This document shows positions 1-15,484 of a stretch of DNA of 53,164 bases, piece after piece. This stretch comes from Spirochaetota bacterium (GTDB taxonomy: Bacteria > Spirochaetota > Spirochaetia > B11-G9): positions 1 through 53,164 of the forward strand of contig JAJRQE010000203.1 in assembly GCA_024280415.1 (NCBI GenBank). The letters are read 5' to 3'. The notes under the pieces are model-generated. The model had not been told where the DNA came from, did no database searches, and worked only from the letters and a program-made list of their open reading frames with translations. Position numbers and translations under genes: made by a program. The number at the start of each line of letters is the position of its first letter. Position 1 is the stretch's first letter.

Positions 1-136
1 CTATAAGATCCCGAACTTTTGTTGCAGACCATACAAATGGTCGTTGAATTTCAGGTATAGCAATCTCTCCTGAATTTATCCATGTCAGCAATGTTTGAAT
101 TGGATGTTGATTAACGGAATAACGTTGTATTGACAT
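1..136 (-). CDS. DUF262 (GmrSD-like) protein, N-terminal part only
   Basis: The first 45 residues of a protein are visible on the minus strand; the rest lies beyond the left edge. They contain the motif [10 protein letters not shown], the hallmark of the DUF262 (ParB/sulfiredoxin-like) fold found at the N-terminus of GmrS/GmrSD type IV restriction enzymes and many other phage-defence proteins. In characterised members this domain hydrolyses nucleotides and accompanies an HNH-type nuclease domain; whether one follows here cannot be seen. The ATG at 136 is preceded by a strong ribosome binding site, AAGGAGGA, seven bases upstream. The gene follows the reverse transcriptase gene in the same direction after 158 very AT-rich bases, so the two may form one defence locus or be independent neighbours. 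Confidence 0.75.
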
Positions 137-294
137 TTAAGGTTCCTCCTTTTCCCCTCTATATTACTTTTTATAAATAGCGTACATTAGTATTGCTAAA
201 TTATATTTTAATATCTTCTATTATATTTAAAATTTAACAACCATAAATTTCTTTTTTTTTGTTAGCTCCAATAAATGTTAAAAAATATAATATT

Positions 295-3200
295 TCATTT
301 ATGTTCTTCATAGTTTTCTAAAACCCTCGAAAATGGATGACAATCAGTATCAAGTTTCAAACCCATATATAAAAAATCAAAACATCCTTTTGGTAATGAT
401 TGATAGCGTGCTATTAGATTAATACGATCTAATGAATTATTTGAATCTTTAATGAACTTGTAACTGAGGGTATTTGTATCAAGGTGGTTTAATAAATCCT
501 GCAATTCTTCTTCAGATAATAGCACATTTTTTATAATATTTTTTTCCTTTTGTCCAATTTTATCTGTAGTAGCAAATAATTCATTGTTCCCAATATTACG
601 TCCACAAATAACATCAACTAGAACATCTTCGTTAAATAACTCTTTAAATGAAATTTTAATATTTTCTATAGATTTATTTGAATACATAACAGTGCAGATG
701 TTAATTTTTTTCAGATTTTTTAATTTAGATTTTACAATAACTTTTTCATTTTCATCGTAATCGTAATAACAATTATCTCTACCATAATCATTCATATAAT
801 ATTTTAGTGCCTTAACGATTTGATTTCCTGTTATTATATTATCCACAATAATAGTAGCTTGCTCTGCAGCATCATGGATTTCAATAGGATTAAAAGAATC
901 TATTTTACGACTAATTTTTGATCCATAATTATAGATTATTCTATGTGTACCATTAAAATCACTTTGCCGTTTTATGAAAATGGGATTAGTATCTTTGTTA
1001 TTAAGACAGTATTCAATCTTATCTATAAACTTTGTAATATCTTCTTTACGCATTACTTCATGAGCTGCAATCAATATTACCAGTATTTGATGAAATTTTG
1101 ATGGTATATATTGCAACCACTTACCTAAAATACTTTCCGCGTTTCCAATATCAATGTCCCTGTGTATTGATATATTTTCAATCGCCACATTAATATTTAC
1201 TAAATCAGAGATTTTCAAATTATCTAGGATATTTTTGGGATAACTCTCAATATTTTCCTTAACTACAAAAAAATCATATCTAAATTTGATTGAATTAAAG
1301 ATTCTACTAATTGAATCATGAATAGTTATAATAAAAACTTTATTACCTTTTTCTAGAGAATAAATATGATCTGCCAAATTGATAAATACTGAATGTTTTG
1401 ATTCAAATACTTGACATTCCTCTTGAATGCTATTTATTAGTTGTACATCTTTAAAGTTATATTCAGATGTATCGATTATTATTGTTTTTTTTGTTTGTGA
1501 TACTCTAGGATATACTTTTTTAAAATCTCCCAGATTCATAGATTGATTATTGCTATCTTCAAACCTAATAATTTTTCTTATAATTTCTTTGTAAATGATA
1601 ATATCATTTTTAATGTACATAGATAATGACGATGTAACTTTATTTTCCAATATATAAAAAGCATTTTCTATGGTATCAAAAAAATCAATAGGTGTATTAT
1701 CATGAATATTCAATCCCTTATCAACACAGTATATATGTCTGTTTTTTTCTTCTTTATTAAAAAGGTGATACTGACCAACAAAGCTGTTGATTCTACTTAA
1801 TCCAGGTGATCTTTTAAGGGATTGAAATAAGGATGATGCAACCACTAAATCCAAAAAAAAGGAATTATCTAAATTTTCAAATTCATCAATATTAATAGAT
1901 AACTCTTTTAAAAAGTCTACTAAATCTATATTCTTATCTAGTTTTTGAATGTACTTCTCATAAATATTTTGTAAATCGTTATTAGTGGAACCAATAATCG
2001 GAGTTGTAAAGTAGCAAAACACAAAATTCTTTAAGTTGTTTTCAAAAGATTCAATCAACCCATAACTATTTAAAAATATTAAATTATTAGAAATACTTAA
2101 TTCCTTATTAAATACATCTAAAGTATTCTTAAATAATAATTTTTCATTACTAAATATATTAGGATAGCCATTCATTTCATCTAATGAATCAATATAATTA
2201 ACAAGTAATTTTATTTTACTCTTTATATCAATTTTAAACATATATTCATTTATTGACTGTAATTTTCCTGGATTATATTTTATGATTATTTCACTATATC
2301 CATTGATTTCATTCTTACAATTACTCGAATCTATAAAATATTCTGTTGGTTTTCTGATTAGTATTCTTTTATATTTTCTTAATAGGATTGTACTATTTTC
2401 AATAATGTTCGTTTCAAACCAATTTTTATTATCTGGGAAATAATTAACATTTTTATTTTCAATAATCCATCTATAGAATTCTGCTTTATCTTTTAATTGC
2501 TTTAATGCTTTATTTATTTCATCAATTTTATATAACAATTTATCAGAAGTGATATAAATCAATATAGCATTACTAAATTTTTCGAAAACTTTGTACTTAT
2601 CTTCAATTCCTCGTATAATTGTACCATCTACAACTGAAGCAATAATAATCATTGCTTTGGGGATATGAATATTAATGTCAGAGATTTTATCAAACCAATT
2701 AAGGCTAATAGAAGGAATTATAAATCCATTTAGGTTATTAAAAATATGTATACAGTATTTCCACATTGCTTTAAGTAATTCTGTTGATTTATCTGAATCT
2801 GAAATTGAAAAAAGACAAAGTAGAAAATAAAATTTTTCAGCTATTGAATGACTAATAATTTCAGACTGTTTATTTATTGATAAATTATCATTATTATAAT
2901 CATTTTGAAATTTCGCATAATATGCTAAAGCCAGATTATTGAGGTCTGATTTTATTATACCTGAACTGGCACATAAAGGGAAAAGAACTTCAATAAAATA
3001 CGTTATATTAGTAATATCATTTATCTCAGTATTTATATGGTTTAATAGTTTAGTTGTAACATTAAGATTTTCTGGGGAGTCAATAGATATAATACTTTTA
3101 ATAATAATTTGGGGTGAAATTTCTGTAATTTTAATATTTATAGTAAATTTTGTATATAGAAGCGATAAATGCTCATCAACAATTTCTGTTCTTTCTAATT

Positions 3201-5637
3201 TATTCTCTATAGCTTGCAGGAATTCACCAAATTGTGCATTCCTGCCTTCAGAATTTTCTAAAAAATCAATGATTGATGAAGTAATTATTTCTGATTGTAA
3301 TTTATTAAATTTATCAACCTTATAGAATAATGTCCAGTTCTCAATATCATTAAGTAAAAAATTGAACAAGTTTTTATACAAACTGCCTCTTCCTTTACCG
3401 CTTTCAATAATTGAAAGAGCTTTATCTTTACGAATATCATCAAAAGTCTTTATGCCAATTAAATGTGAATAGATAAATGATAAATCCTCATCGCAAGTAT
3501 CTGATTCAAGCAATTTCATAAATTCGTTGAGTGCTAAATCTTTTTGCTTATCTGTTGCCTCAGTGAAATTCTTAGAAATATGATCCACAGCATATTTTGA
3601 TTGAGAACGATAATTATCAAATTCTTCATTAAAATCTTTAATTTGAGAAACTATAGTTTTTTCGCTATTTATACTTAATCCTAGAGATTCTAAATCTTTT
3701 TTAAACTCATCAAAAATGGTATTTGCCAATTCTTTTGTTTTAACAATAATAAAAATATCATCTACATATCTTTGATAAAATAAAATCTGATTTGTTTGTA
3801 AATATTGATCATACTTATTGTCTAAATTATCTAAATACAACTCAGCTAAAACTCTAGCATAAGCTGGTCCCTGAGGAAGACCTACTTTTGATTCACAAAT
3901 TGTTGAAGAAAGATCCAATAGGAAATGTAAATGTTCTTTATAAAGTTTCAAAGATCTTTCATCTAATTGTGAAATTTTACTATCAATTCTAGAATTTCCA
4001 TCACCTAATAATATTCTTTTTATTCTATCATGAGAAATAGTATCATAAAATGATTTTATATCTGTTTTTATTATATAATATTCCTGATTGTCACTATTAG
4101 AAATTGCAGAACTGATATTGGAGAGAAAGTTTATCCATAAATATAACCATGGTTTAAAAATATATCCACCCGAAAAACCTGCATTAATATAATAACCATA
4201 TGAATTTTTATTAGGAATATACTCCAAATAGTAAATAAAATTCTTTATTATAGCAGATGTTAAGATTCTTTCTGTAGATCCAAGTGTAATTAGTTCTCTT
4301 TCTTTTTCATCTTCAGAACGAATGTGCTTATAATAATTGTAATGTTTTTTATTCTCCAATAAAATTGATATTTTCTGCAGGAATTTAAAACTACTTATAT
4401 TTGTTAGTTCATTGATAATTAGCCTGGATTGTACTTCGTCATTTTGAAATAAATAATTTACTTCAGCAATAGATGTTATTTCAACATCTTTTAGAGAAAT
4501 CTCTAAAGTACCATCCAGATAACTTTTAAATTTGGGAATACATTTGTTCAATAATTCTTCTAATGTTAATATTTTTTCAAATTTTATACTAATAATTTCC
4601 TCAATCTTTTGTTGGGATGGAAAATTGAAAGATGATAGAGAGTTAATTGCTTTTTCAGTTCTTTGGTAATTATAATTATCTGTTTTGCTAAATATTTGAT
4701 GCAATATAGAAAAATTAAATCTATTTTTTGATTCGATATTTCCTAGGATTCCAACTAATAATTTACGTTTCTCGTTACTTAGTTTAGCTTCACCTTCAAT
4801 ATCATCACATAATGATTGTAATGGTTTATTTTTTCTCCAATGATTAAATAATTCATCAATTGAAAAACTACCGTTCTTAATACTAATTGATTTAATTCTA
4901 TGTTTCGATAGTATATTGTCTTCTTGATATCTAATTATGATACCCAATTTTTTTTCTATATCTGAAATATCAATGCTTTCATGTTTCTTCAAGATAGAAA
5001 TATGAGTGTTAAGTATATCCTTATCAAGATTATTCACTCGATTCATATTTTCAATATTGTTATAATTCTTAAGAAGGAAAGAATAAGAATTCGATTTTGT
5101 ATGTTTAGAAAGTGGAATCTTTACTGCACTACCAACACCACTACTTGGTACTTTTGTTTTCGGGAATAAATCAATTCCAATTAGATCCTTACTGAATTTA
5201 AGGTTAACATATTCTAAAATAGTATGAAGTAAGTTGTTCCCCATTTCATATCCTATGCTATTTTTGAATGTTATCCATATATGGAACCCACGATTTCCAG
5301 AAAATTCTATTAGATAAGGTATTTCAACTTCATCAAGAGAGTGACAAAAAAATCTAACCGTACGATCTAATTCTTCTTTTGCTATAGTAGATTTTGAGTT
5401 GTTAAGGTTTTCTTGCAATATATCAAAATCGTAACAAATCCATTTTATTGATCTATCACTATTTCTTTGATAAATCGCAACAGAACCTTTGTTCTTTATA
5501 TTATTTTCTAAAAAAATAGGAGATATATTACATTGTTTCTTTTTATATGTACCATTTGGTTGTTGTTCGGCAATATAATTTTGATCAGTTGAAAATATTG
5601 AATATAAAAGAGAAGAAACATCTGAAATTAAATCCAT
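295..5637 (-). CDS. Primase (AEP)-reverse transcriptase-PRTase-like fusion protein
   Basis: A 1780-residue protein, probably cytoplasmic and acting in anti-phage defence. Seen: an archaeo-eukaryotic primase domain at about residues 45-190 with D70/D72 in YDFD, H119 in SGNRGFHIW, and VKIPLSKH at 172-179; this set resembles the primases of TOTE conflict systems. A helical PriCT-like stretch follows (about 260-350). The reverse transcriptase palm spans about 450-665, with D526 in KTDIKSFYD, GLPQGPA at 586-592 and the catalytic YVDD at 624-627. About 900 residues of unassigned sequence follow, then a phosphoribosyltransferase-like PRPP-binding motif, IVDNIITG, at about 1597-1604. The reading frame is open further upstream to 5730, but the ATG at 5637 is preceded by GAGG eight bases away and starts a more natural N-terminus. 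Primase-RT fusions are known among the UG/DRT defence reverse transcriptases (from memory UG10/DRT7); exact assignment is unproven. The gene is far richer in A+T than its neighbours, which suggests transfer. No maturase or intron ends are seen. Confidence 0.85.
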   Translation of the reverse strand: MDLISDVSSLLYSIFSTDQNYIAEQQPNGTYKKKQCNISPIFLENNIKNKGSVAIYQRNSDRSIKWICYDFDILQENLNNSKSTIAKEELDRTVRFFCHSLDEVEIPYLIEFSGNRGFHIWITFKNSIGYEMGNNLLHTILEYVNLKFSKDLIGIDLFPKTKVPSSGVGSAVKIPLSKHTKSNSYSFLLKNYNNIENMNRVNNLDKDILNTHISILKKHESIDISDIEKKLGIIIRYQEDNILSKHRIKSISIKNGSFSIDELFNHWRKNKPLQSLCDDIEGEAKLSNEKRKLLVGILGNIESKNRFNFSILHQIFSKTDNYNYQRTEKAINSLSSFNFPSQQKIEEIISIKFEKILTLEELLNKCIPKFKSYLDGTLEISLKDVEITSIAEVNYLFQNDEVQSRLIINELTNISSFKFLQKISILLENKKHYNYYKHIRSEDEKERELITLGSTERILTSAIIKNFIYYLEYIPNKNSYGYYINAGFSGGYIFKPWLYLWINFLSNISSAISNSDNQEYYIIKTDIKSFYDTISHDRIKRILLGDGNSRIDSKISQLDERSLKLYKEHLHFLLDLSSTICESKVGLPQGPAYARVLAELYLDNLDNKYDQYLQTNQILFYQRYVDDIFIIVKTKELANTIFDEFKKDLESLGLSINSEKTIVSQIKDFNEEFDNYRSQSKYAVDHISKNFTEATDKQKDLALNEFMKLLESDTCDEDLSFIYSHLIGIKTFDDIRKDKALSIIESGKGRGSLYKNLFNFLLNDIENWTLFYKVDKFNKLQSEIITSSIIDFLENSEGRNAQFGEFLQAIENKLERTEIVDEHLSLLYTKFTINIKITEISPQIIIKSIISIDSPENLNVTTKLLNHINTEINDITNITYFIEVLFPLCASSGIIKSDLNNLALAYYAKFQNDYNNDNLSINKQSEIISHSIAEKFYFLLCLFSISDSDKSTELLKAMWKYCIHIFNNLNGFIIPSISLNWFDKISDINIHIPKAMIIIASVVDGTIIRGIEDKYKVFEKFSNAILIYITSDKLLYKIDEINKALKQLKDKAEFYRWIIENKNVNYFPDNKNWFETNIIENSTILLRKYKRILIRKPTEYFIDSSNCKNEINGYSEIIIKYNPGKLQSINEYMFKIDIKSKIKLLVNYIDSLDEMNGYPNIFSNEKLLFKNTLDVFNKELSISNNLIFLNSYGLIESFENNLKNFVFCYFTTPIIGSTNNDLQNIYEKYIQKLDKNIDLVDFLKELSINIDEFENLDNSFFLDLVVASSLFQSLKRSPGLSRINSFVGQYHLFNKEEKNRHIYCVDKGLNIHDNTPIDFFDTIENAFYILENKVTSSLSMYIKNDIIIYKEIIRKIIRFEDSNNQSMNLGDFKKVYPRVSQTKKTIIIDTSEYNFKDVQLINSIQEECQVFESKHSVFINLADHIYSLEKGNKVFIITIHDSISRIFNSIKFRYDFFVVKENIESYPKNILDNLKISDLVNINVAIENISIHRDIDIGNAESILGKWLQYIPSKFHQILVILIAAHEVMRKEDITKFIDKIEYCLNNKDTNPIFIKRQSDFNGTHRIIYNYGSKISRKIDSFNPIEIHDAAEQATIIVDNIITGNQIVKALKYYMNDYGRDNCYYDYDENEKVIVKSKLKNLKKINICTVMYSNKSIENIKISFKELFNEDVLVDVICGRNIGNNELFATTDKIGQKEKNIIKNVLLSEEELQDLLNHLDTNTLSYKFIKDSNNSLDRINLIARYQSLPKGCFDFLYMGLKLDTDCHPFSRVLENYEEHK

Positions 5638-5678
5638 AATACCCGCCTCAGCACTCTCTGCCATAAAATTCTCCCACA

Positions 5679-5930
5679 TCACCCAAAATCCAACTCCTGT
5701 TCCTTCTTCTTCCCCTGCAACTCCTCCCACTTCTTAGCAGCTTCCGGATGCAGTTCCCCAAACAAATCCCTTCCCATAAACTCCCCATAATCAGAATGTG
5801 CCACGGCTAAAGAAGGATCTTTCTTTACTTTCTCCATAACCCTCTCCGGCCAGTAACGCATGGCTAGATGGGACCAGTCAAAGTCTTTCTTTCCCTTTGG
5901 ATTGGAAAGGGATATACAGCAGCTTAAAAC
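5679..5930 (-). pseudogene. C-terminal remnant of a large DNA-modification protein (possibly a BREX-type methylase)
   Basis: The minus strand stays open for 83 codons directly after the Res stop codon and in the same frame. It encodes DFDWSHLAMRYWPERV followed by a charged tail ending in ELDFG. An ATG occurs only at 5861, inside the conserved-looking stretch, and no ribosome binding site precedes it, so this is read as the surviving end of a longer gene whose 5' part is gone. The WSHLAMRYWPERV and DPSLAVAHS pattern resembles, from memory, C-termini of large N6-adenine methylases of the BREX PglX kind; this is an inference only. It ends 41 bases before the reverse transcriptase start. The same bases could also be a fused relic created when the restriction operon was inserted. 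Confidence 0.4.
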
Positions 5931-9131: not shown

Positions 9132-9569
9132 CTACGCTTCAAACATCAGGCGGTGGAATTCGCTATCTATAAGCCGGACCTTCCACCGGTCATCGACCGT
9201 ACGGATATTTTCAAGATTATTATCCCTGTTAACGTAGATGAGATCAAATTCCATATCCCGGATTTTAATCTGCATTTTTTCTACAAAACTATTTAACTGC
9301 TCGTTGGAGATATCTTTGTCCCTCCAGATTACAAGGATTTTTTTCTCATCCCTGTTTATCCCTTCAATTACTTCGAGTCCTTTGTGGTATGCGTAACTGG
9401 AAACATTAAGGCCGATGAGGTAGTTAAAGGTTTCTACCAGATCAACTGTTTTCTCTTCAGTCTCTCCTACTACATCGGTTGCTATTTTAAGTTTGTAGTT
9501 AAAGGGTTCCTCGAACTTTTTCATGTTTAAGAGGGAGTCTCTGCTTTCAAAGTCGATCATGTAGTTCAT
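9132..9569 (-). pseudogene. C-terminal fragment of type III methyltransferase Mod
   Basis: 145 codons beginning at ATG 9569 that correspond to the C-terminal end of the long Mod proteins of this family (DFESRDSLLN, VDLVETFNYLIGL, RDMEFDLIYVN, EFHRLMF). The fragment is in a different frame from the preceding Mod piece. In its own frame the upstream bases read FQDSYV before MNYMIDF, which continues the family alignment back to about 9587. The stop of the upstream piece and this ATG overlap as ATGTAATG, so translational coupling could still make the fragment. It contains no catalytic motif. It is best read as the downstream part of one gene broken by an out-of-frame internal deletion. Confidence 0.75.
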
Positions 9570-11662
9570 TACATAACTGTCCTGAAATCATTCGCACCTT
9601 GATTATGACCAAATTGATCATGTTGCCACCAATTAGTTGCACATTGTCCTTCTTTTTCTCTCTCAAATTTGTAGTATTTCTTTCTTGGAGACCCCCTACC
9701 ATTCTTAGGGAAATACATACGACCATTTTCCTTTAATCGCTTGAACTTGGACTCTTCACCCATCCATTCTTCATTTAGTACCTTTCCAGTTGGGGTGGTG
9801 ATTTTGTAATGTGAACCGCTTTGACCAGAGCCTACTTTCCAAGGTTTGGAGGCCCAGTCACCTAGTGGATCACCGTCAGGATTAGAAAAATCTCCCGTAA
9901 GATCTAACTTCCCAACTCCAGTTTTTTTATATATAGAAGAATTTTTTGCATAACTAAGAATGTACTCAGCAACCATTCCAATCATCTTTGTTTTATCATT
10001 AGGCTGGTTATGTCTACGCCGCCATGAAATTAATCCTTCAAAATTCATTTTCTGAAATACAGTATCCATCAAAATTTTGAGTGAGGCTATTTCGTTGTGA
10101 TCAATACTAGAAAAGAAAGTAGCATCATTCCTCATAAGAGTAATTGCCCCTCTAACTCGCTCGGTCATTAATGCCAACCATGATGAGCCTTCAAAACTAT
10201 CTTTATAGATAAACTTCCCTTGTTGTCTATCTTGTTCAGTATTATAAGGCGGATCAATATACACACACTTAATCTTCTCCCTATACTTCTCCTGCAAAAG
10301 CCCCAGAGCCTGAAAGTTCTCACTATTTATAATTAACCCATCAGTCTTCTCATCAATATCATCAATAGAAGAAAGCAATGTTTTAACAAAACTCTTATCA
10401 TAGAACTTGGTATCTATTACTGCAAAAGGATTGTCCTTTATCCACGCTGGTTTATTGGAAGGAGTTTTCTCATAAAACCCTAATTCCTTCCATTCATCCC
10501 ACTGCTCTTTATTCTTAACAACATCATCCAGAAGATCCTTTGGAAGATAATCCAGAGTTACACAATAACCGGAATCGACAATAAATTTCTTCTTAAGCCA
10601 CAGCTTCTTCTGAAACTCTTCAAACTGAGTAATAAAGTCTATAATATCCTGACCAACCGCCTTAATAGCCCGAATCTGGTCAAGCTGTTGTTTTAGGGAA
10701 ACTTCTTTGGCATATTCAATATCATCAAGAAACATAACCTCATTTTTAATGTAGAAATCAAGCTCCCTCTGTAAAAAAGTCTTTATATCCTTATGGATAA
10801 AATAGTCATAACTGTTCCGGGCAGTATATTTGTAGAGCTGTTTCTGCAGAAAAGTCTGCTGTTTATCCTTTTTATCTTTAGGATTAACAATTTCCAATAA
10901 TAACTTCCAGTCATTGGCCAATTCAGATTTGGAAAAGCCCTCAACTGCTGCTTTATTCAAATTGATCTGAGCATTCTTTCCGGAAACACTCTCATTTCTA
11001 TATTCAAAGGAAAGAACCAGTTCTCTATTCTCAACGGTGAAAGGTTTCTCCTTTCGCAGAACAAAAAAACGCTTTTTATCATCCTTATTATTATCCTTCT
11101 GCTCCCCTTCAACCTCTACAATCTTAAAATGAACCTTTCGCCCATCGGATATCTTAAAAACATAATCTTTATAGTGCTCCCCTGTTTTTATGTAGTACTG
11201 ATCTGCGTTGGCCCAGTACAGTTTTACCTCTTCCCCGCTATAAGGAATAGCATAGGTATCCCCTTTATATCGACGGCGGGAGATAAAATCCCCCTTGTCA
11301 TAGTAACGGCGAAAGAATATAGCCAGATGGTTGTAAACTTCATTTTCAATATCAGAAAAATCCCGGGTATCAGTTAAAAGAGCCTTCAACTCCTTCACCT
11401 TGGGAAGCGTATCAGGATCGGCACCAAGAGCTTCTGCCTGTTTGATTGCTTCGGCCAAATCTATTTTTACTTTTTCGTGACTGTTGTCTTTGTATTCAGC
11501 CAGAATATTTTGTACTTTCTCCGGGAATTTAGTTTCTGTATAATCGGTTATTAGATCCCGTTTTACATTCATTATACGGTAGATACCGAAGTCGAGATCA
11601 GACTTATCCATCTCGAAAATTTCATTTAATATTTTTACAAACTTCTGCTGTGCTTCACCCAT
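9569..11662 (-). pseudogene. Type III site-specific DNA methyltransferase Mod, internally deleted
   Basis: The N-terminal two thirds of a type III beta-class adenine methyltransferase. Seen: the family N-terminus MGEAQQKF, the catalytic DPPY motif in CVYIDPPYN (about residue 470 from the chosen start), and a target-recognition region containing SWRRRHNQPND and WASKPWKVGSGQSG. The frame ends abruptly after FGHNQGAND and then FRTVM. In intact relatives this point is followed by about 170-200 residues that include the SAM-binding motif I (FAGSGTT type), which is absent here; the C-terminal fragment at 9132-9569 resumes after the gap. The start at 11662 is chosen because AGGAG lies six bases upstream and MGEAQQKF matches the family start; an ATG at 11689 lacks such a site. 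Without motif I, methylation is not expected. An assembly collapse is the alternative. Confidence 0.8.
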
Positions 11663-11681
11663 GAGCTTCTCCTGTGCTAAT

Positions 11682-12860
11682 TTACCCATTCAAAATATTA
11701 TTAGACAATTCACGATCTCTTCGTATAATACACTTAAAGAAGTTGCCCTCTCGATCATCAATAAAATCGATATCAGGATATTTCTCCAATGCTCGAATAA
11801 TTCCGGAACCAAAACCCCGGTAAGGCAGTATCTGATAAGCAAATGAAGTTAATACCGGATTACGCGAGTTCGAATTACCTGCCTTTATATTTTCTACAGT
11901 AAGATTGTTTGGAAGGTGTCCAGGGCTGATAATTTCTACACGGTCTAAGAAAACAAAAACCCGTATTGGTGCAGAAATAAAATAATCGCGATGAACCAGA
12001 GCATTTGTTACCAATTCTTCCAATACTGGCCTTGGAATCTCCGGAATGCCAGGACTATTTACTGACTGTTCACCTTGCACTTGTTTTAAATTAGCTAAAA
12101 TAAAACCAATTGTTTGCTGGAAAACGTCACCCATGCGCCCTGTTATATTGCGACTATCAATATAGTTGTCAGTTGCAATACTTTCCCCAGGAAATGCACC
12201 AGCTTTAATAATAAAGGAAGGAAGCCTGGATGAAGGATCTTTACTAAACAATAAGGCTCCTGTCATATTTAACTCTCCAGCTTCCCCCAGATTCATATTC
12301 GTAATGGTTTGTTCCAATGATAAATTCTGATTATCCAGAGTTTCTCCATATCTTCTTTGTAAGAAATCACGAAAATAGGGCATATCAATATCTGATATCG
12401 TTAAACCGTTTGCCGGTGCGACATCAGCATGGATCATACCTGATGCCTGAAACAAACGTTGTATTTCTTCACGGGAAGTAGCTCTTCGCTTATCTGCACC
12501 ACTTTTCACCCAGAATACACCATTTTTATCCTGGTATGGTTTGTTAAGCCCTTTAGGTACATTAATAACAAGAATTATTTTCTCAGTAATGGTAATATTC
12601 TGTGTGGTGGGATTTATAGCTGGTTCAACATTCTGACTGGCTACATTTGATATCATTTGGTTAAGGCGTTGAATATCTTCGCTTGATAATCCCGATATAG
12701 TTCCATCGTCTTCAACTCCTATAAAAATTGTACCACCCTGACCATTACTGAAAGCAACCATTTCGGCAGAAAGAGAGTCCGGATTATTTATATTCCTTTT
12801 AAACTGGTTCTGACTGTCTTCTCCCTGAGCAAGAATCTGCATAATTTCTATGGTTTCCAT
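11682..12860 (-). CDS. AlbA_2 (Schlafen-like) DNA-binding protein with RecG-like ATPase C-terminus
   Basis: A 392-residue protein. The first 120 residues hold an AlbA_2 domain (FKRNINN, AFSNGQGGTIFIGVEDDG, then KSGADKRRAT), a fold shared with Schlafen nucleases and common in transcription regulators and defence proteins. The C-terminal part (NALVHRDY, VEIISPGHLPNNLT, GFGSGIIRAL) matches the HATPase_c_4 domain usual in this family. The ATG at 12860 lies inside the end of the TrlF gene (13-base overlap) and is preceded by AAGGAGA, so the two are translationally coupled. It ends 19 bases before the chosen Mod start. Its exact job in the operon is unknown; a regulator or an RNA/DNA-processing role is possible. 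Confidence 0.8.
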   Translation of the reverse strand: METIEIMQILAQGEDSQNQFKRNINNPDSLSAEMVAFSNGQGGTIFIGVEDDGTISGLSSEDIQRLNQMISNVASQNVEPAINPTTQNITITEKIILVINVPKGLNKPYQDKNGVFWVKSGADKRRATSREEIQRLFQASGMIHADVAPANGLTISDIDMPYFRDFLQRRYGETLDNQNLSLEQTITNMNLGEAGELNMTGALLFSKDPSSRLPSFIIKAGAFPGESIATDNYIDSRNITGRMGDVFQQTIGFILANLKQVQGEQSVNSPGIPEIPRPVLEELVTNALVHRDYFISAPIRVFVFLDRVEIISPGHLPNNLTVENIKAGNSNSRNPVLTSFAYQILPYRGFGSGIIRALEKYPDIDFIDDREGNFFKCIIRRDRELSNNILNG

Positions 12861-15484
12861 ATCTGATAAATCTCCTTACGCTTATCGAAGGCTTCCCGCC
12901 CTCCTTCCATAATATTTACAATAGTTCTTTGTATAATTTGATTATCAACACTTCCACTGATAACAGTTCCTTTATCATCCATAAAGGAACAGGCATGCAC
13001 ATGCTCTGCATCACCAAGTACAGGTATATTTGGATTATGAGTAGCAAAAATGAACTGAACTTTTGACTTCATTTTACGGATCAACTTAATAACATCTTCA
13101 TATATAGTTTGATTATCTAAATCATCTTCCGGCTGATCTATAATGATAACATCATTTTCCTTTTGACTCAGTACAAAAAGAATAAGAGCTGAAGCTCTTT
13201 GACCAAGAGAGTGATGCTGCAACTCTTTCCCCCGGTACATAATTGTAAACTTATTAGGGGTCTGAAATGTAAGAAGGGTCTTAAGATTCTTCATAAAAAG
13301 GTCAGTAAGTATCTGAGGATTGCTTCCAAATAGGTTCTTTGCTTTCTCAAAGTCCTTGTATATCGAAAGAAAATCCTGATAATAGTCTACAATTCCCTTG
13401 TACGTAGTTTCTCTTATCCCGCTGCTACGGAATACATCTTTCATAAAATTTAAAAAGGCTTGTTTATCCTCTTTATATTCTGATGTAATTGAAAGAGATG
13501 AACCGTTATTTCCAACCTTGTCAAGCTCTTTCTTAATTAGATTAAATTCCAGATAACACAGTTCATTCAGGGTTTTTATTTCACTCAATAGAGTATCTTC
13601 CAATGTCTTTTTCTGATCACCGGTTTTTTCCAGTTCTTTAATCAACTGAATTGTCGTGTTCATTTTCCTCTTTAGGTTGAGAAATTCATCCGAGCTTATG
13701 TTCTGAGTTCCACTGTTTTTTAGTTCAACACCAAGTTTGCGTTCAATTTCAGCAAACTCTTCAACCATCCCTTTTCGTATATCATTGAGTTCACCCTGTA
13801 AACCGGAGAGTGCTGTCTTATGAGGAGCAAGACTGTTTACTTCCAATTTAATCTTATCTATCAGAGCATCAAAGGTATTATATTCTGCATAAAACCGATC
13901 AAATAATTCCTTATTGTGTTTTGAAGAATACCCTGAAAAGTTCTTTATATCATCTTCATGCTTTGCAAGAAGTTCTTCCAGATCAGACATAAACCCTTCT
14001 ACAAGATCTATTCCATTTTTCATGGTTCTTATGTCACTATCGAAATCAAGACGCTTTTGCAGCTTTTCTTCAACTCCATGATCGGCATAGAACTTTAGTC
14101 GATGTTCTGTATCCTTCTTTGTATTTTTCTGTTCCTCTATTTGATCCTGTACATTCGCAATTTTCAGTAAGTAATCTACAGCCTCTCCGACCTTCACTTT
14201 TTGCGTAGCAATCTTCTGACGAATCTCATCCAACTTTGATCCCATCAGCTTATCAACCAAATCCTTTTCAAAGCCTTCTCCTGTACTGGACAGATCTTTC
14301 TGACCAAAATATATAGGCTTATGTATTACGGTCTCACGAATTGAAACCCCGGGTTGTAACTTCCCGTCAATTAGAACCTCAGAAGAAGGCTCCCTCAGAA
14401 CACGCCGAATTGTATACTGTTGTCCATATCGATCAATAGCATCAATTTCTACCTTACCACCGCTCCCCAAAGTGAACTCGACAAGCTTTTCCTTGTACTT
14501 AGTATCTCCTGCTTTCTCTCCAAAAGGTATATCTAAAACATACCGAAGAACCTCCATAACGGACGACTTGCCACTACCACGAATACCAATTAGAGTATTG
14601 AGTTCAGAGGAGAAATGTAGTTCCTGTCCGGATAGAGTGCCTCCTTCAAAGCGAATATTCTTAATGTAAGAGAAGGTATGAGCAGGGTGTGTTGAAGAAA
14701 CCCGACTTCCCTGATCAACCAATGCAAATTTAACGGCATCAAACGAAAAAGCACCAATTTTTACAAAGCCTTTTTCTCCTTTACCAATGTCTGAAATAGA
14801 TTTACAGTCTGAACCTTCCAATTCAGCAGGATACCAGCTACCCAACGAACTTTTGACTTTATCTCTGTCATCCCGAGTACGCACTTTCTGAAATCCAAGA
14901 GTGCGTTTTCGAATAGTTTCATATCTGGAGGACACAAAATCACTGAGTTTACCTCCAGCCATTTCATTACAAAGCCCACTTTTCTGCTCTACGTGAGCAA
15001 AGATAAGAAAATAATCCCTTGAAGTTTTCTCAAGTTCTTCTACAACTTGAAGTATATTTTTGTCGCTCCTACCATTTTCATTTTGGTATTCTGATTCAGC
15101 TTTCCCTGGAAACATACTAGAAATAAATGGTGAAATATAGTCATTCCCGTTTTCTAACCACCTTTCACTAAACGTTATTAGAATATGAATACCATTGGCA
15201 CCGTCATTAACTGACAGCTCAACTCCCGGCAGCAAGAAGATTTCTTCCTTCTCTGCCTTTTTACGTAAAGCTTTAAACTCATCAACATCAAATTTATTGT
15301 GATTAGTTATTACACCGAGCTGTATGCCAGAAGTTTCTAATCCAGTAACATAATCAGAAACAAAACTATTATCTTCTCCAGAGTATGAAAACTCTTTATC
15401 AGCCTTTGTATGTAAATGAAAATCTGCTCTTAACCAGGTAGAACCATATTCGAACACTTCAAGTGCTTTATGCACATCACTCAT
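12848..15484 (-). CDS. TrlF-type PHP domain plus SMC-like AAA ATPase
   Basis: An 878-residue protein. Seen: an N-terminal PHP phosphoesterase domain with FHLHTKAD (H23, H25), TNHN and LPGVELSV; Walker A GIRGSGKSS near residue 300; a long charged coiled-coil-forming middle (about 400-690); a signature-like SLGQRAS; Walker B IIIDQPEDDLDN; and an ATHNPNIPV switch-histidine segment. This is the layout of SMC/Rad50-like ATPases with a fused nuclease-type PHP domain (TrlF family), common next to restriction genes. By analogy it may use ATP to control a PHP hydrolase acting on nucleic acid; the substrate is unknown. The start has GGAGGT six bases upstream, and the gene lies 24 bases behind the XRE gene. 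Confidence 0.8.
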   Translation of the reverse strand: MSDVHKALEVFEYGSTWLRADFHLHTKADKEFSYSGEDNSFVSDYVTGLETSGIQLGVITNHNKFDVDEFKALRKKAEKEEIFLLPGVELSVNDGANGIHILITFSERWLENGNDYISPFISSMFPGKAESEYQNENGRSDKNILQVVEELEKTSRDYFLIFAHVEQKSGLCNEMAGGKLSDFVSSRYETIRKRTLGFQKVRTRDDRDKVKSSLGSWYPAELEGSDCKSISDIGKGEKGFVKIGAFSFDAVKFALVDQGSRVSSTHPAHTFSYIKNIRFEGGTLSGQELHFSSELNTLIGIRGSGKSSVMEVLRYVLDIPFGEKAGDTKYKEKLVEFTLGSGGKVEIDAIDRYGQQYTIRRVLREPSSEVLIDGKLQPGVSIRETVIHKPIYFGQKDLSSTGEGFEKDLVDKLMGSKLDEIRQKIATQKVKVGEAVDYLLKIANVQDQIEEQKNTKKDTEHRLKFYADHGVEEKLQKRLDFDSDIRTMKNGIDLVEGFMSDLEELLAKHEDDIKNFSGYSSKHNKELFDRFYAEYNTFDALIDKIKLEVNSLAPHKTALSGLQGELNDIRKGMVEEFAEIERKLGVELKNSGTQNISSDEFLNLKRKMNTTIQLIKELEKTGDQKKTLEDTLLSEIKTLNELCYLEFNLIKKELDKVGNNGSSLSITSEYKEDKQAFLNFMKDVFRSSGIRETTYKGIVDYYQDFLSIYKDFEKAKNLFGSNPQILTDLFMKNLKTLLTFQTPNKFTIMYRGKELQHHSLGQRASALILFVLSQKENDVIIIDQPEDDLDNQTIYEDVIKLIRKMKSKVQFIFATHNPNIPVLGDAEHVHACSFMDDKGTVISGSVDNQIIQRTIVNIMEGGREAFDKRKEIYQIWKP

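Follow-up and report, generated by a model that had tools for sequence, protein, structure and literature searches.

The window analysed here, a stretch of 53,164 nucleotides from a Spirochaetota bacterium, carries near one end a minus-strand open reading frame (295..5637) with 1780 uninterrupted codons counted from an ATG at 5637, which we describe below as a DRT7 (UG10_large) gene. An alternative in-frame ATG at 5664 is preceded by a better spaced GGGAG and may be the true start of the gene, and the mechanical start of the same frame is a GTG at 5730. The GC content of the gene is 0.250 (GC3 0.167), against 0.375 in the neighbouring defence genes and 0.396 in the rest of the window, so that the strongly deviating composition claimed in the original prediction is evident (25% versus 40%).

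The same prediction placed the gene in a defence island, and its neighbours bear this out. Directly upstream lies the remnant of the C-terminus of a BREX pglX methylase (5679..5903, minus strand; PADLOC PglX, E 6e-17), which suggests that the island lost a BREX system, and it is followed by type III restriction-modification, AlbA_2 and TrlF ATPase genes. The type III methyltransferase (9132-11689, minus strand) is read as two overlapping frames of 706 and 145 aa, the longer matching its profile up to about position 593 and the shorter positions 902-1053; as it reads in the sequence, this mod gene is possibly internally deleted or split. An AlbA_2/Schlafen gene (11682-12860) adjoins the gene of a TrlF-family ATPase (12848-15484, minus strand; NCBIfam NF045780, 565 bits). 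On the downstream side, the next gene is of the GmrSD type (DUF262), of which just the start is present (1..137, minus strand), cut by the contig end.

Comparison of six UG10 loci gave no flanking ORF and no upstream element common to them, strong upstream similarity being restricted to two close Pantoea loci. Upstream of the DRT7 gene, no Rfam family was matched, and a structured leader RNA was not indicated, the fold of this region being no better than that of shuffled sequences (z +0.9). Since neither a neighbour gene common to the six loci nor an RNA element was found, DRT7 is here probably a single-gene system.

The polymerase half and its family

One polypeptide was originally proposed to hold both a primase and a reverse transcriptase (RT), and this is what is found: both Pfam domains lie in one open frame with their catalytic residues intact, and they are the only ones above the Pfam cut-offs in the window protein. 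The archaeo-eukaryotic primase (AEP) primase/polymerase domain occupies residues 33-194 (5056..5541, minus strand; Pfam AEP-TOTE, 59.3 bits, E 6e-16) and the RT domain residues 512-663 (3649..4104, minus strand; Pfam RVT_1, 56.6 bits, E 4e-15). In the alignment of six full-length proteins, the window protein included, the primase residues D70/D72, H119, D156 and K173 are invariant in all six, and so are D526 and YVDD (residues 624-627; 3757-3768, minus strand) of the RT. With a family profile, the closest solved structures to the primase domain are 7nqd/7nqf (E 1e-24), which we take to be CRISPR-associated primase-polymerases; the NCBIfam model PrimPol_Msp matches the same domain at 94.5, below its cut-off of 200. 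Only the primase and RT parts were matched among solved structures, and no whole-protein match was found there. A 934 aa RT-primase fusion at another locus (L021, 706-3510, minus strand) has the reverse order, with the RT first, and overlaps a Cas1-like gene; it looks like a CRISPR-adaptation RT-PrimPol, not a UG10 protein.

The relatedness to UG10/DRT7 was named correctly in the original prediction. The PADLOC profile RT_UG10_large (PDLC03746) matches the window protein with 1635 bits over profile positions 2-1686 of 1688, while the next unrelated RT group, RT_UG36, reaches 98.5 bits. A second PADLOC profile, UG10_small, has 824 positions and covers only the first 785 residues, its match ending before the C-terminal region; a UG10_small protein apart from the large protein itself was not found in the gammaproteobacteria searched. 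It had also been suggested that the length and the TOTE-like primase motifs might mark a distinct branch. Because UG10_large is matched end to end and other proteins share the architecture over their full length, this is not supported; by profile, not by tree, the protein falls in a characterised group with identical full-length architecture. Judged from its sequence, the window gene is thus a full-length member of the known UG10/DRT7 family.

Contig scanning and whole-genome searches returned complete homologues of 1777-1789 aa in two Pantoea genomes, one Phytobacter genome and one further gammaproteobacterial genome, to which the window protein is 37-41% identical. A homologue of 1776 aa, WP_096936834.1, is carried beside conjugation (trb) genes by E. 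coli MY203L1 and NY1601; among 5,426 complete E. coli genomes, these 2 were the ones that a distant blastn was sensitive enough to pick up. Six complete proteins could be aligned, and the full-length homologues (1776-1789 aa) share the order of domains of the window protein. By domain, identity is highest in the RT (46-57%) and lowest in the stretch preceding the C-terminal domain (20-35%). Besides these, UG10 fragments occur in two Photobacterium genomes, a copy on a Peribacillus plasmid is cut short at about 970 codons, close to an IS3 element, and one homologue has, from a reading of its ORFs, a P2-like replication gene on one side and an integrase on the other. No full-length relative was found in viral contigs or phage records. 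In a sample of 393 genomes of the host's phylum, a full-length match was obtained in the host only, and none of five congeners has one. This restriction to the host, together with the low GC content, points to acquisition of the gene by horizontal transfer.

We also considered that the genome might carry a decayed or inactive DRT7 copy, as the gene adjoins the pglX remnant and is missing from the host relatives searched. The 1780-codon open frame, the integrity of every catalytic residue tested and a length equal to that of the homologues make such decay very improbable. The gene is a well-preserved representative of an established family, and its host is unusual.

Regarding the way in which the two polymerase domains work together, the original prediction was that the primase might supply a primer, from which the RT would copy an RNA template while a phage infects the cell. 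Two polymerase domains in one chain fit this idea, and concerted priming and reverse transcription was suggested for UG10 in an older survey (PMC8934634). However, according to a paper citing a DRT7 preprint, the RT-primase-polymerase fusion makes palindromic, A/T-rich, duplex-like DNA in a protein-primed and protein-templated reaction (PMC13213688), and this account displaces the view that the primase primes the RT. Other papers that cite DRT7 preprints mention cryo-EM structures along with polymerase activity (PMC13314766) and state that the fusion holds a second domain that polymerises DNA (PMC13174585). Antiphage activity of the family is likewise reported in the preprints, as related in PMC13213688 and PMC13314766. 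Moreover, neither a template RNA nor a conserved upstream element was found at the loci compared. Therefore, we regard primer supply by the primase as improbable.

The C-terminal region

The original prediction left about 1100 residues after the RT without assignment, apart from a short C-terminal motif, and indeed a search with the window protein alone gives no meaningful Pfam or NCBIfam match there. The first part of this stretch, residues ~691-1070 (2428..3567, minus strand), is all-helical in an AlphaFold2 (AF2) model, whose pLDDT rises to 70-87 only in places between residues ~760 and ~860; its Foldseek matches to TPR, HEAT and importin folds are non-significant. It is followed by a middle region, residues ~1071-1475 (1213..2427, minus strand), which is the least conserved part of the protein. 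The AF2 models, with four sequences as input, are poor, with a mean pLDDT of 44.5 for 1091 residues, the model containing the helical region, and 53.9 for 320 residues; Foldseek on the latter placed a uracil phosphoribosyltransferase (PRTase) first, at a non-significant E of 0.12.

For the C-terminal tail, Pfam and NCBIfam return no credible family from the window protein by itself, and its assignment depends on homologues. We think that residues ~1476-1780 (298..1212, minus strand) form a PRTase-CE-like domain. The Pfam model PF24390 (PRTase-CE) has no match in the window protein itself, and it matches three homologues with 27.7, 25.4 and 24.2 bits (cut-off 27; E 3e-6, 1.6e-5 and 3.6e-5) and, in a genome search, another one with 28.7 bits. 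At E<=1 it is matched by 5 of 7 UG10 members, the window protein not being among them. One homologue also matches weakly the PADLOC retron profile PRTase_III-A (E 0.005).

The UG10 tails were compared by hhalign with seven PRTase-CE proteins, one encoded beside an ATPase gene, one from Cupriavidus, one gammaproteobacterial and four from RT-adjacent loci, at one of which the RT is that of a retron III-A (PADLOC). The score was 23.9, against 13.1 +/- 2.2 (maximum 20.1) for 200 column-shuffled alignments and 14.3 for the reversed one. As the scoring alignment spans 33 columns only and its probability is low in absolute terms, this result supports the PRTase-CE assignment and does not prove it. 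Small HMMs built from PRTase-CE proteins pick up the UG10 tails with weak scores only (E 0.02 to 0.3 among about 270 proteins), and hhalign of the tails with three uracil PRTases gave no signal. A PRTase-CE protein of 175 bits is also encoded at locus L072 (1456-2613, minus strand), between apparent type I restriction-modification methylase and specificity genes.

Local similarities point in the same direction. A PRPP-loop-like motif, IIVDNIITGNQI (residues 1596-1607; 817..852, minus strand), can be aligned by eye with VVDDAAFTGNQL of a PRTase-CE protein that scores 102.9 bits, and the loop pattern D-x-I-I-[ST]-G-x-Q of the UG10 tails resembles that of the PRTase-CE protein. The C-terminal NLIARYQSLPK...FLY of the window protein likewise resembles GTLIAFGHGCPN...ILW of the PRTase-CE protein. 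In the six complete proteins D1599, G1604 and Q1606 are invariant, which gives the acidic residue and the G-x-T/Q expected of a PRPP loop. The position that follows the first acid holds N or V in place of a second acid, and catalysis by the domain is therefore not assured. Taking all this together, it is quite likely that the C-terminal ~300 residues of the DRT7 protein are PRTase-like. The term PRTase superfamily is safer than PRTase-CE, because PF24390 also matches ordinary uracil PRTases. In the literature searched, with the DRT7 preprints and the 2022 UG/Abi survey lying outside it, no paper joins DRT7 with a phosphoribosyltransferase. Priority for the PRTase-like tail cannot be claimed; the family itself is known, and the interesting part is the assignment of an effector.

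The main rival to an effector role is that DRT7 acts wholly through its DNA product, a duplex that would be toxic or sequestering, the C-terminal domain being structural or a nucleotide-binding regulator. In papers citing the preprints, DRT7 is presented solely as a fusion of RT and primase-polymerase that produces A/T-rich duplex DNA (PMC13213688), and for other DRTs such papers report action through DNA products (PMC13213688, PMC13314766). A PRPP loop that lacks the second acid and a UG10_small profile that stops short of the C-terminal region agree with this reading as well. Against it, none of the six complete proteins has lost the tail of ~1000 residues, whose loop residues are invariant, and in the Pantoea pair purifying selection acts on the C-terminal region (dN/dS 0.19). 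We consider action through DNA alone possible, if rather doubtful.

A working model and its relation to known systems

We lean, by a small measure, towards a full-length, probably functional and horizontally acquired DRT7 single-gene antiphage system, in which the polymerase half would control a PRTase-like effector. Its components do not all stand alike: the catalytic sites appear intact by sequence, the PRTase-like domain is probable, and we infer the coupling and the effector role. In such a system, the RT would start DNA synthesis on a protein residue, with the protein setting the sequence, and the RT-primase-polymerase fusion would make A/T-rich duplex-like DNA, both steps being taken second hand from the family literature. 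The state or the DNA product of the polymerase half might then control the PRTase-like half, which would act on a nucleotide, PRPP or nucleic-acid substrate, and this action could halt phage growth, perhaps through arrest of the cell. More tentatively, UG10_large could be regarded in general as a self-contained RT-primase-effector machine, where DNA synthesis arms a fused PRTase-type effector, and hence as a single-chain counterpart of retron III-A.

For most DRTs, the way in which the DNA synthesised by the RT acts against phages is still a question. Should a PRTase-type effector form the C-terminus of the large DRT7 proteins, point mutations within one gene could separate it from the half that makes DNA, and such a separation would directly test DNA as weapon versus trigger. 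It would also link the UG RTs to retrons through a common type of effector.

With other UG10/DRT7 proteins, the window protein shares domain order, length, catalytic residues and the end-to-end profile match; it differs in being about 37-45% identical to the homologues found and in that the searched relatives of its host are without the gene. The CRISPR-associated primase-polymerases (7nqd/7nqf; NCBIfam PrimPol_Msp) resemble it in the primase domain, but no CRISPR genes are seen near the DRT7 gene. With TOTE conflict systems it has in common that Pfam AEP-TOTE matches this domain. A TOTE system was rejected for the locus: an AEP joined to helicase and nuclease modules was not encountered, no such domain being matched by Pfam in the DRT7 protein, and over its full length the protein is best matched by UG10. 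An alpha-Rep (HEAT-like) domain follows the RT in class 1 UG RTs, as mentioned in PMC13174585, and the predicted helical region of DRT7 sits in its place. A retron of type III-A was likewise rejected, given that the RT is UG10, the system probably consists of a single gene and, unlike in retron III-A, no RNA element was found at the locus. Retron III-A and DprA-PRTase systems are known to carry PRTase effectors (PMC12548924, PMC9122126). There, an RT, or a DNA-binding protein, is partnered with a PRTase-type effector, as predicted here for DRT7; in those systems the PRTase is a separate protein, whereas in DRT7 the PRTase-like domain would be fused to the RT and the primase.
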